From: Ursus arctos
Taxonomy: Eukaryota; Chordata; Mammalia; Carnivora; Ursidae
Direction: 5' to 3'
Length of the DNA stretch: 64,000 nucleotides
NCBI RefSeq assembly: GCF_023065955.2
Contig: NW_026623089.1
Location: forward strand, 33,696,767 to 33,760,766
Shown in pieces: positions 6,767-60,563 of the stretch. Each line of letters opens with the position of its first letter. Position 1 is the first letter of the stretch. A program made the position numbers and the translations under genes. Below the pieces are notes generated by a model. The model was not told the DNA's origin. It was given only the letters and a program-made list of their open reading frames with translations, and did no database searches.

Positions 6767-6880
6767 TTTTTTCTAAGATTTTATTTTTTAAGTAATCTCC
6801 ACCCAGTGTGGGGCTTGAACTCACAACCCCAAGATCAAGAGTCACATACTTTACCAACTGAGCCAGCCAGGCACCCCAAG
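6767..6880 (-). repeat. Short CAN SINE, antisense (second of a facing pair)
   Basis: It shows poly-T, 'agtgtggggcttgaactcac' and an end of 'gagccagccaggcacccc'. The middle is the short form, without the purine-rich part. A decayed third copy of the target, 'aaagcttctt', follows at 6881. Confidence 0.9.
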
Positions 6881-9310: not shown

Positions 9311-9411
9311 ACTTAAATAAAAAGCTGAAAAGAAAAAAAGAAAGGATACTTTGTAGCTAGATCATGTTGGCACAGTTTTGCTTTATTGCTTTCATTGTCA
9401 TAGGGCAGTCT

Positions 9412-9607
9412 TTCTTTCCCTTTCTTTCTTTCTTTCTTTCTTTCTTTCAGGGAAGAAGAGGGAAGGGGAGAGGGAGAGGGAGAGATAATCTTAAGCAGGC
9501 TCCATGCCCAATGTGGAGCCCAATACAGGGCTTGATTTCATGACCCTGAGCTCATGAACCAAAATTAAAGTAAGACACTTAAGCAACTGAGCCACCCAGG
9601 TGCCCCA
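9412..9607 (-). repeat. CAN SINE, antisense, with (TTTC)n tail, 70 nt before the ribozyme
   Basis: A run of TTTC repeats at 9412-9448 leads into a purine-rich block, 'ggagcccaatacagggcttg' and 'gagccacccaggtgcccc'. The insertion ends at about 9607; the ribozyme cleavage site is at 9677/9678. Confidence 0.9.
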
Positions 9608-9677
9608 GGACTATTTGCGTAAAAGTAGCTGTGTTTTGCTGCTCAGTTTTTAAATACAAGGATCATAGAGGGTAACA

Positions 9678-9745
9678 GGGGGCCACAGCAGAAGCGTTCA
9701 CGTCGCGGCCCCTGTCAGATTCTGGTGAATCTGCGAATTCTGCTG
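9678..9745 (+). ncRNA. CPEB3: CPEB3 self-cleaving ribozyme (HDV-like)
   Basis: This is the mammalian CPEB3 ribozyme, a 68-nt HDV-like nested double pseudoknot that cuts its own RNA just before its first G. The sequence matches the human ribozyme as I remember it, except that position 30 (9707) is G where human has A. All helices can be paired by eye. P1 is 9678-9684 with 9707-9713 (first pair G-U, last pair C-G). P2 is 9686-9693 with 9738-9745, eight pairs. P3 is 9694-9696 with 9704-9706, closing a 7-nt loop. P4 is 9716-9722 with 9727-9733, a 4-nt loop. The catalytic cytosine equivalent to HDV C75 is C57 of the ribozyme, at 9734. Cleavage would fall between A9677 and G9678. It lies in sense within the intron, 9.7 kb before the next exon, so cleavage would split the pre-mRNA and compete with splicing. 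Activity is inferred from intact structure and family knowledge. Confidence 0.97.
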
Positions 9746-10329
9746 TGTAACTCCTCATTTATCCATTTAAGCCAAACAACAATTGAAATGAACAGGGGCA
9801 GGGCTGACTTTGGTGTTTATGGATATAGGTGTCCTTTGTGGTCTAGTAATAGTTCTAGATAGAAGCTGGAGCATATCCTTTTTAAAATGTGCCTTGGTTA
9901 CAAGTATGGGATAAGCTGGGTCTCTGAAGGACACAGCACATCACTCTAAGATTGGAATCTCTGGAATAAAAAAAAAAAAAACTCCTTAGAAACAATGGGA
10001 GAGAGAACATGCTGTTTGTGGGCAATATGGTTAATAACTGCTGGTAGGTCTCTGCAGGAGTATTAAAGACGTCCTTAGAAATGTAAATGACACATTGTGA
10101 CAAGGGATGGCATTAGTTATTTGACTGGCAGTAGGTTTGCCTCTTGAGCTTTACTACTGTCTGATTTAGATTTTATTACCTGAGTCCTGTTGTGGCTCTT
10201 GAATGGAACAGCTACAGTCAAGACTTTGCCTTCCTTCAGTCATAGCTGAAGAAAGTTACTAGATCTTATGTCCTATACCTAAAATAGACAATTTGCAGGT
10301 AGTATCATAGTTCCTGTTAAAACATTAGA

Positions 10330-18542: not shown

Positions 18543-19385
18543 TGTTTGCTTTTCTTAATCAAAAGCAAACTTAATCTGTAATGTAATGTATTCTGTAAGG
18601 TTAAATTAAGCTGTGAGTTGTGCTTCCTTTTAGCTCAGACTCGTAAAAATAATTTGTACATGATGGTTTCCCATGGGCTTGAGTGAAATGTGGTGGAACG
18701 ATGATTTTTCTTCACTTAGGTTGTGTTAGCTCTCTACTTTCAAAACGTTTTTGACTCTAGCATCATGTAAACACTATCTTGGGTTAAAGTTTTTTCATGT
18801 GAGTGCTTTTCAAAAGTTAATTTTAGTAGTACTTTGGACACATTTTAAGTTTTATAGAGTATATCTAATGTATGGAACTTACCAGTAATGAATATTAAAG
18901 ATACCCAATAAAATTACATTGAAACTATAGTCACCTTTTGATTTTTCAGGAAAGTGATACTGTTTGTAGACTGAGAGTTCTTAATTATGGACTTCCTCTA
19001 GATAAAAAATTCTCTGTTCATTTGAATAGAATGTTTATTTGACAATGGAGCCGGAGGAGAAGGACTGAGGGCAGAGTCAACTGGCTTGACTCTTTCCTTT
19101 GAATTACTTTAAGTTCTTTAGAGAGAAAGTCTGAAGTAGTGGGACATATACATTAAAGAATATTGGAGAAAAGGATGCAATTAATTATAGAAACTTGTAT
19201 TAAGCTTAATTTTGCCAAATCATTATTCTTAATGAAAAGAATGTGTGTTATTAGAACTATCTGGAACTTTGATTCATGTCATCAATCCATGGCAAGAAGC
19301 AAATGATATAGTATTAATTTTATGAAGTAATTTTATGTATTGTCATGTTCTGTGTTTTTTTGTTTTTTTGTTTTTTTTTTTTTAG

Positions 19386-19545
19386 GACCGGAGTAGGCCG
19401 TATGACACTTTTAACTTGCACTCGTTGGAGAACTCCTTAATGGATATGATAAGGACTGATCATGAGCCTCTGAAAGGTAAACACTACCCTCCCAGTGGCC
19501 CACCAATGAGTTTCGCTGATATAATGTGGAGGAATCATTTTGCAG
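19386..19545 (+). CDS. CPEB3: CPEB3 coding exon with two alternative 5' splice sites
   Basis: This 160-nt exon starts in frame with GAC and encodes 53 codons plus one base. It begins DRSRPYDTFNLHSLENSLMD, continues to RTDHEPLK, and ends in the segment finishing MWRNHFA. This matches CPEB3 rather than CPEB2 or CPEB4, whose equivalent regions differ (CPEB4 has a SLESSLIDIMR-like stretch). The segment belongs to the linker between the low-complexity N-terminus and the RRMs. The acceptor follows a long T/G-rich tract. Two donors are possible: AAAG|GTAAAC after 19476 and GCAG|GTTAGG after 19545. They differ by exactly 69 nt, so the shorter form drops 23 residues in frame. Both leave one base (G) that joins GA of the next exon to give glycine. 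CPEB3 acts in the cytoplasm, binding U-rich or CPE-containing 3' UTRs to control translation, notably in neurons. Confidence 0.96.
19477..19545 (+). other. CPEB3: Alternative 69-nt exon tail (23-residue optional segment)
   Basis: This stretch is retained only if the downstream donor GTTAGG at 19546 is used. The upstream donor GTAAAC at 19477 looks closer to consensus. The optional peptide is GKHYPPSG followed by PPMSFADIMW and RNHFA, 23 residues. CPEB2-4 family members are known to vary by short cassettes at this place, and the longer CPEB3 form is a known isoform. Frame is kept either way. Confidence 0.88.
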
Positions 19546-21509
19546 GTTAGGAATATTCATATGTCCATTCCTTGCTTGGTGTTTTAAATAAAAATCAGCT
19601 TCTTAATAATTGTGATTTTTTTCTTTTTTTTTTTTTCCCGTTTGTTTTTTTTTGCTTCTGTAAAGCATTGTGGAATGTATTTAAAGTTGATTTTTTTTTT
19701 TTAACCTGGGTTTAGCTACCTACAATAATCAAGGTTGATTGCTTTAATCATAATGTCTGGCAGAAGCATGTGTTGGGTAGCATGAGACCAGAAGTCAAGT
19801 TTTCTGGGCTTGGTGCGTTTGGAATCCTTAGCTGAACCTGCATTTAAGTCAAAGTACACTGCAAGGAAATGTGAGATTTAGTAAACCAATCTCCAAAGAC
19901 TACTTCAGAAAACTGCATAGAAAAAGAGTTCCATTTTATTAAAATATAATCACTCTCCTCATATAGGAAGTATCACTACACAGACTTAAGAGCAGCCAGT
20001 GATTCTTTACATTCTCTAAGGCTAAAACAGAAAGAAAATGTCTTAAAGTGTGTAAATGTTTTGGGTTAAATGTAAGGCAGAAAGTCCCAAGGTCAGCAGT
20101 ATTAGGACTTGCTATTTTTAGAGCCCATGTAAATTCAGGTTAGTGGTTGATGTTACATTCCTAAGTACAGATAGTTCTTTTTATGTGTTATGGGACTTTT
20201 TAGGGGCCCTGTGATATTTTAAAATACCGTAATGGAAATTTCCTGTGGAAATATCCACTTGTGTTTAGAGCCTAAATATCTGAAAACTGTGAAGAGTTGG
20301 CCACAAGAATGCCCATCTTGTTTGAATCCTTATGTTCCCTGGAGCTGTGAGGAATTGGATCCTCTCTGGTTCTCTCCAGGCTTTTATATAGATTGTGACT
20401 GACTATGAACACCTGATAGTCATTTCCTCAAGCCACCTCAGAAATCCATTTCATCATTTTCTTGTCACACTCATGATTTTCTGTTGCTTTCCTCAATTTC
20501 CAGTGAAAATAAAGTAGTTAACAGGCTATCAAGAAAGTAAAGGATTTTGAGAAAAGCTGTATTTTAAGGCCTTCAGAATTAGAAAAAAAGATCTTTCATT
20601 TATTCATTGTTATATTTAGTCACCGTTACCACGTCTTTGCTCAGTTGAAAGATTAGGTACATGGTAATTTAGAGAATATTTCACTTAGAAGTGAGAATGG
20701 TGTTAAAAAAAAAAAAAAACCAGTGATATTCACAGACTGTTTTGTGTTTTTAGTATCTTCTAAGGCTGCATTTGTCTTCCTTCTCTACCACAAACAGCTA
20801 TAAGCCTCTCCTAATTATTCTAAAATATTCAGCCTTTGTCCTTTATGCATACCTGTTTTATCTTGATCTGTATTCTTTTCTTCTAGCAATAAAAGATTAT
20901 GAAAGGATCTTATATTATAGTCTGTAAATAATTTTCCAGAATTTTGTGAATATTGTTTACACAGGAGCTATTGTGCCCTGTTCAGAGTAGCAGTGGCAAA
21001 GTGTAAAAGAGGGTACTTCACTATGGGGTAATGTAAACCCCTTATTCCATTTTTGGAGGCGCCTTTTTAAAGTGCGTGTCCAACTACCTCTGCATATATT
21101 TCTCTGCCACATTTGCAAATGTGAGGTTTCATCTGTAAAAGTCTTTTGCATTGTACTCACAATATGTCCTAATAAGTTGGGAGGCGTATAATATGTACTT
21201 TTTTGCAGCCTTAGTATGCTTGCAACTTCTCTGTTCATCATACCACCCACCTTGATTTCCTACTAATGGACTATTTCCCATGGTCAATTACATCACCATG
21301 TCATTGTCCTCTGGTTAGAGTGTTTGAGCTTCCTGCTTCCCTTTTCCAGCTGGGAGACTTTTAGATCTGGCCTATGGCACCATGTATTTGATTCTTATTA
21401 CTTCTAATAACATAATTATGATGCTGGCATTTTAAAGGAAAAATTTTAAGTAATTTTTGACTTAAAAATGGAGAAAATTATAATAACAAAAATGTAACTG
21501 AAAAAATAA

Positions 21510-29495: not shown

Positions 29496-29552
29496 GACGC
29501 ATGGGAATAAATTTCCATCATCCAGGAACAGATAATATTATGGCACTTAACA
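29496..29552 (+). CDS. CPEB3: CPEB3 57-nt coding exon
   Basis: This exon encodes (G)RMGINFHHPGTDNIMALN and then the first base of the next codon. It is flanked by TTTTTTAG and a strong donor A|GTAAGT. Its length is a multiple of three and both introns are phase 1, so skipping would keep frame. The peptide is the CPEB3-specific stretch just before the microexon. It is part of the flexible linker ahead of RRM1, and no domain motif is visible in it. Confidence 0.95.
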
Positions 29553-58610: not shown

Positions 58611-58778
58611 GTCGGTCTTCTCTCTTTCCCTTTGAAGATGCCTTCCTGGACGACAGTCACGGCGATCAATCCTTGTCATCTGGCTTAAGTTCTCCCACTC
58701 GCTGTCAAAACGGAGAACGAGTAGAACGTTACTCTAGGAAGGTGTTTGTTGGAGGCCTTCCTCCTGATATTGATGAAG
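58611..58778 (+). CDS. CPEB3: CPEB3 168-nt coding exon, start of RRM1
   Basis: The exon encodes (G)RSSLFPFEDAFLDDSHGDQ, SLSSGLSSPTRCQNGERVER and YSRKVFVGGLPPDIDE. KVFVGGLP is the RNP2 motif (beta-1) of the first RNA recognition motif. SSLFPFEDAFLDD and SSPTRCQNGERVERYSRK are characteristic of CPEB3 (CPEB4 has a different SSLFPMED-type sequence). The acceptor is TTTGTTTCAG and the donor is GAAG|GTATGA. The length is a multiple of three and both flanking introns are phase 1. The last G joins AT of the next exon to make the aspartate of DEIT. Confidence 0.97.
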
Positions 58779-60473: not shown

Positions 60474-60563
60474 ATGAGATCACTGCCAGCTTTCGCAGGT
60501 TTGGACCTCTCGTTGTAGACTGGCCTCACAAAGCTGAAAGCAAGTCCTATTTTCCTCCTAAAG
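60474..60563 (+). CDS. CPEB3: CPEB3 90-nt coding exon inside RRM1
   Basis: The exon encodes (D)EITASFRRFGPLVVDWPHK and then AESKSYFPPK, with the last base G entering the next codon. This is the helix-1 to beta-2/beta-3 part of RRM1. The aromatic RNP1 motif that follows (G-Y-A-F in CPEBs) would lie on the next exon, outside the window. VVDWPHKAESK is shared by CPEB3 and its closest paralogues. The acceptor is TTTGTAG and the donor is AAAG|GTAATG. The exon is 30 codons long in phase 1, so skipping keeps frame but would destroy the RRM. Confidence 0.97.

Follow-up and report, generated by a model that had tools for sequence, protein, structure and literature searches.

The analysed window, a 64-kb stretch of Ursus arctos DNA, carries at positions 9678-9745 of its plus strand a 68-nt element that we identify, with practical certainty, as the mammalian CPEB3 (HDV-like) self-cleaving ribozyme. 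It is a real, intact and ordinary copy of this ribozyme, for which self-cleavage is predicted from the sequence. We consider it probable, by analogy with other mammals, that this is the orthologous CPEB3 ribozyme in its conserved intron position, and that it would cut the nascent intron and lower CPEB3 output.

A single, full-length match to the CPEB3 ribozyme family

The whole window was scanned against Rfam 15 with cmscan. The family RF00622 (CPEB3_ribozyme) was matched at 9667-9744 (+) with a score of 107.4 bits and an E-value of 2.5e-29, over the full length of the model (1-78 of 78). This is well above the gathering score of 35 bits, and agrees in coordinates and strand with the initial annotation, which had proposed a CPEB3 ribozyme at 9678-9745 and a covariance-model search as a check; a score under the threshold would have counted against the proposal, and the outcome is clearly in its favour. 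The model includes 67 positions of the ribozyme, base 9745 lying outside it, and all 67 are equal to the consensus. Over the complete model, 77 of the 78 positions are those of the consensus; the sole mismatch, a G for A at 9672 (position -6), lies outside the ribozyme.

The RF00622 search was extended to the bear's own genome (2,423,180,442 bases in 362 contigs) and returned one match, at the same locus; scoring covered the best 59 of 110096 first-look candidates, and weak copies may have escaped it. The 301-bp region 9600-9900 likewise occurs once in this genome among the best candidates scored. Since the E-value excludes a chance origin of the match, and since CPEB3 exons lie downstream and the match is the only one among the candidates scored in the genome, we rejected the reading of the element as a chance resemblance or as a dispersed copy foreign to CPEB3, which we hold to be vanishingly improbable.

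A 19-nt core of the ribozyme had no exact match among the viral contigs searched, and one among the prokaryote contigs, in a bacterial MAG (L001:1330-1348, minus strand). As a CPEB3 ribozyme this bacterial locus was rejected: it scores 18.7 bits for RF00622 (cut-off 35) and was taken as chance. By our own estimate, which assumes equal base frequencies, chance alone would give about two 19-nt matches in 257 Gb when both strands are counted.

Two Rfam matches exceeded their cut-offs in the window, that to RF00622 and one to the tRNA family, and neither is an HDV-family match or an opposite-strand ribozyme. The tRNA-family match (6872-6800, minus strand; 30.0 bits for a cut-off of 29, E 0.032) coincides with a SINE-like head; positions 6800-6872 (-) most likely hold a SINE of tRNA origin and no tRNA gene. 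A can-SINE head motif gave 25 matches, 23 of which look like such SINEs by eye, which suggests a carnivore genome, and some of these copies may resemble arctoid (bear, seal or mustelid) subfamilies. About 70 bases separate the cut site from the end of an upstream can-SINE-like copy (9409-9606, minus strand), whose tail is of the TTTC type. This copy is so close that the native upstream transcript of the ribozyme contains SINE sequence, probably lineage-specific.

All helices and the catalytic cytosine are in place

Pairs were counted at the helix positions of the HDV-like fold, numbering G1 as 9678. All 25 helix pairs are formed, 24 of them Watson-Crick and one a G1-U36 wobble at the cut site (Table 1). 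The initial annotation had described four main helices without mismatch and a catalytic cytosine at 9734; both descriptions hold, the cytosine being C57, and the cleavage site that it predicted at 9677/9678 is consistent with the numbering from G1. C57 of the CPEB3 ribozyme is the proton donor according to PMC9901934, which also describes the T1/P1.1 pseudoknot as two pairs, one of them U:U. The bear copy has U21, C22, G37 and U38, so that U21-U38 and C22-G37 could make up T1; a script limited to standard pairs gave two other options for it.

Table 1. Ribozyme parts and CPEB3 coding exons in the window
Feature	Position	Strand	Remarks
CPEB3 ribozyme	9678-9745	+	68 nt; predicted cut 9677/9678; from RF00622 and helix count
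Upstream 11-nt segment inside Rfam model	9667-9677	+	9672 is G, consensus A; ACA at 9675-9677
P1, 5' strand	9678-9684	+	partner 9707-9713; 7/7 pairs, the first a G-U wobble
P1, 3' strand	9707-9713	+	G at position 30 (9707), the Rfam consensus base
P2, 5' strand	9686-9693	+	partner 9738-9745; 8/8 pairs
P2, 3' strand	9738-9745	+	partner 9686-9693
P3 hairpin	9694-9706	+	9694-9696 with 9704-9706; 3/3 pairs; loop UUCACGU
P4 hairpin	9716-9733	+	9716-9722 with 9727-9733; 7/7 pairs; loop UGGU
Catalytic cytosine C57	9734	+	position from helix numbering; role from PMC9901934
Next recognised CPEB3 coding exon	19386-19545	+	DRSRPYDTFNLHSLENSLMDMI...; 160 nt; AG before, GT after
CPEB3 coding exon	29496-29552	+	tblastn with CPEB3 probe; AG before, GT after
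CPEB3 coding exon	58611 (or 58638)-58778	+	tblastn with CPEB3 probe; AG before, GT after
CPEB3 coding exon	60474-60563	+	tblastn with CPEB3 probe; AG before, GT after

The ribozyme lies in sense in a CPEB3 intron

CPEB3 exons were searched by tblastn, using a CPEB3 protein probe that lacked the first part of the protein. The exons recognised downstream of the ribozyme are in order and on the same strand, which places the ribozyme in sense with CPEB3. The alignment at 19380-19547 reaches 98.2% over 56 aligned residues and runs slightly beyond the ends of the next exon, which is probably CPEB3 exon 3. The distance from the cut site to this exon is 9708 nt, in an interval searched with this CPEB3 probe only; this bears out the sense orientation and the 9.7 kb to the next coding exon given initially. 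Upstream of the ribozyme, the probe, which is without the first part of the protein, found no CPEB3 exon in the window. We infer that the host intron is CPEB3 intron 2. The sequence, the fold, the position and the single genomic match of the element are shown by the present analysis.

The exon ending at 58778 (+) has two candidate acceptors, 58611 and 58638, 27 bases apart. Translated by hand, starting in the exon before it, the longer form has SRSSLFPFED in place of the single N of the shorter one, a gain of 9 residues. The 27-base extra stretch probably corresponds to the alternative segment known to precede the CPEB3 RNA-binding domains.

An intact member of a catalogued family

A survey of 100 CPEB3 ribozyme sequences from 99 mammals, including Carnivora, gives an assayed or assigned activity for each (PMC8233481). 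The ancestral sequence is identical in 41 species, with a fraction cleaved of 0.92, while G1A lies behind the majority of greatly reduced activities; low-activity sequences are reported as commoner in Carnivora, Artiodactyla, Laurasiatheria and Afrotheria/Xenarthra (PMC8233481). The bear copy is without the G1 change that this survey blames for the majority of the greatly reduced cases. G1A, C9U, G30A and U36C are named there as changes from the highly active ancestral sequence, and the bear copy has G1, C9, G30 and U36. These we take as ancestral bases because the survey names changes from them, its text not giving the full ancestral letters.

Mammals have lost activity in part on several separate occasions (PMC8233481), which would be compatible with a dead relic, conserved in sequence but unable to cleave itself even if correctly folded. 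Against such a relic stand the intact P1-P4, C57, G1 and U36 and the identity of the modelled ribozyme positions with the Rfam consensus, and we judge it very improbable.

The initial annotation had presented this carnivore copy as new, a claim that is not supported: the survey already catalogues Carnivora among its 99 mammals (PMC8233481), and the bear copy fits the conserved consensus. What is already in print covers the family and its distribution across mammals, Carnivora included, as well as its activity and the model of competition with splicing. For Carnivora CPEB3 ribozymes, PMC8233481 was the sole match of our full-text search. The exact bear sequence was not found in the full-text literature; such sequences usually stand in supplements, outside the search. 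Nor did a full-text search find the CPEB3 ribozyme together with dog and cat. The bear copy is one more intact, conserved example, from an order reported to be richer in low-activity versions than most, and is useful for comparison, not discovery.

Proposed race between cleavage and splicing

Cleavage, its rate and its effect on CPEB3 are inferred here from other mammals. The transcribed intron RNA would fold as an HDV-like double pseudoknot. The 2'-OH of A-1 (9677) would attack the next phosphate, C57 would act as proton donor and the leaving group would be the 5' oxygen of G1 (9678), so that the intron would be cut at 9677/9678. As is typical of the family, the reaction would depend on Mg2+ and leave a 5'-OH and a 2',3'-cyclic phosphate. 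At the 3.5-4.1 kb/min used in PMC10919898, RNA polymerase II would cover the 9708 nt that separate the cut site from the next exon in about 2.4-2.8 min. If the cleavage half-life is close to this transit time, part of the pre-mRNA would be lost before the exons are joined, and this loss would mean less CPEB3.

In mouse, the ribozyme has a half-life of about 2-3 min and the polymerase arrives at the next exon after about 2.5-3 min; an antisense oligonucleotide on the cut site increased both the mRNA and the protein of Cpeb3 and improved object location memory (PMC10919898). The suggestion made at the outset that a race between cleavage and splicing tunes CPEB3 is therefore plausible for the bear; as a new inference it falls away, being already published and tested in mouse (PMC10919898). 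The CPEB3 ribozyme ties RNA catalysis to the regulation of a memory-related gene, and work on its function continues.

A predicted upstream misfold close to P1 in energy

Alt P1 is a misfold of the CPEB3 ribozyme with upstream sequence (PMC8233481), whose exact pairs are not spelled out in the text of that paper. In the bear, the upstream ACA (9675-9677) together with G1-G4, i.e. ACAGGGG, can pair with CCCCUGU, and on our own reading of the letters this pairing would be the published Alt P1.

We compared this misfold with P1 in a nested energy model, which holds no pseudoknot; P1 and P2 cannot coexist in it, and P2 was omitted. As isolated duplexes, the misfold has -13.1 kcal/mol and P1 -14.1 kcal/mol. 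With enforced pairs, a 6-pair misfold was better than P1 by 0.15-0.46 kcal/mol in all five upstream contexts; for a 7-pair misfold, P1 was better by 0.15-0.23 kcal/mol in four of five contexts and worse by 0.08 kcal/mol in the other. Favouring the named pairs instead of enforcing them shifted the energies by at most 0.1 kcal/mol where the context was the same. Free ensembles computed without downstream sequence gave the pair of the misfold a higher probability (0.51-0.68) than that of P1 (0.32-0.45) in all four contexts. The base at -6 (9672), G or A, left the balance between P1 and misfold unchanged. Within the error of the model, the misfold and P1 are about equal, and cleavage of the bear copy in its native transcript may be slowed by the misfold. 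The native cleavage rate is uncertain because the upstream ACA allows a misfold near P1 in energy. The fold claimed at the outset is intact, as stated above, but fast native cleavage does not follow from it, given that an Alt P1-type misfold is possible.

On these grounds the ribozyme could be mostly inactive in the native transcript, held in Alt P1, and be kept for another role, for example as intronic structure or regulatory DNA. A slowing of about 250-fold was reported in human (PMC8233481, citing Chadalavada 2010), and misfolding potential is described in elephant, which carries the ancestral ribozyme sequence (PMC8233481). However, a mouse ribozyme with native flanks has the half-life of minutes given above (PMC10919898), and the P2 pseudoknot is absent from the energy model. 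Furthermore, with enforced pairs in the 11-nt context, the misfold gains just 0.18 kcal/mol with G30 as in the bear, against 1.62 kcal/mol with A30. Position 30 is, we assume, A in the human ribozyme. Overall we regard a mostly inactive ribozyme as rather unlikely, and retain cleavage of the nascent intron as the preferred reading.

When downstream sequence was included, nested folds gave P1 mostly near zero, one of the eight downstream lengths keeping it at 0.39, and in one such fold the P2 strands were paired with each other. These folds are uninformative on P1, because P2 pairing excludes P1 in a nested model.

Downstream of the ribozyme, 46 bases past its end, AACAGGGGCAGGGC at 9791-9804 (+) is a complement of the P1 3' strand (-17.2 kcal/mol). 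An equally good complement arose in 23 of 1000 dinucleotide shuffles and in one of 384 other window blocks, figures that are uncorrected for its having been picked after looking. By its predicted pairing energy it could act as a competitor for P1. In mouse, k1 was 0.39 for the construct -10/72, 0.42 for -49/72/165 and 0.31 for -233/72/165 (PMC10919898); these values imply that 165 nt downstream did not by itself slow the mouse ribozyme.

We mention as a long shot that carnivores differ in their CPEB3 ribozyme, and that the bear lineage combines three things, a fast-type core (G1, G30, U36), an Alt P1-type switch that is intact and the possible 9791-9804 competitor, so that a switch under the control of the flanks, and not the core, might determine cleavage. 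If this were true, a comparison with any carnivores carrying G1 changes would bear on whether cleavage matters for the level of CPEB3.

Comparison with known ribozymes

The mouse ribozyme resides in intron 2 of Cpeb3, with its cut site 9931 nt ahead of exon 3 (PMC10919898), and resembles the bear copy in this placement, the bear cut site being 9708 nt ahead of what is probably exon 3. The two were compared by position, and differ in that the mouse ribozyme has been assayed in vitro as well as in neurons and in vivo, whereas the bear copy is known from its sequence. With Rfam RF00622 the bear copy shares the full model and the location upstream of CPEB3 exons in sense, and it departs from it by the G at -6. 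The HDV ribozyme has its helices P1-P4 in the same order as the CPEB3 ribozyme. Both also use a catalytic cytosine, C75 in HDV and C57 in CPEB3 (PMC9901934). In contrast to the HDV ribozyme, the CPEB3 element belongs to a host intron and is not viral.
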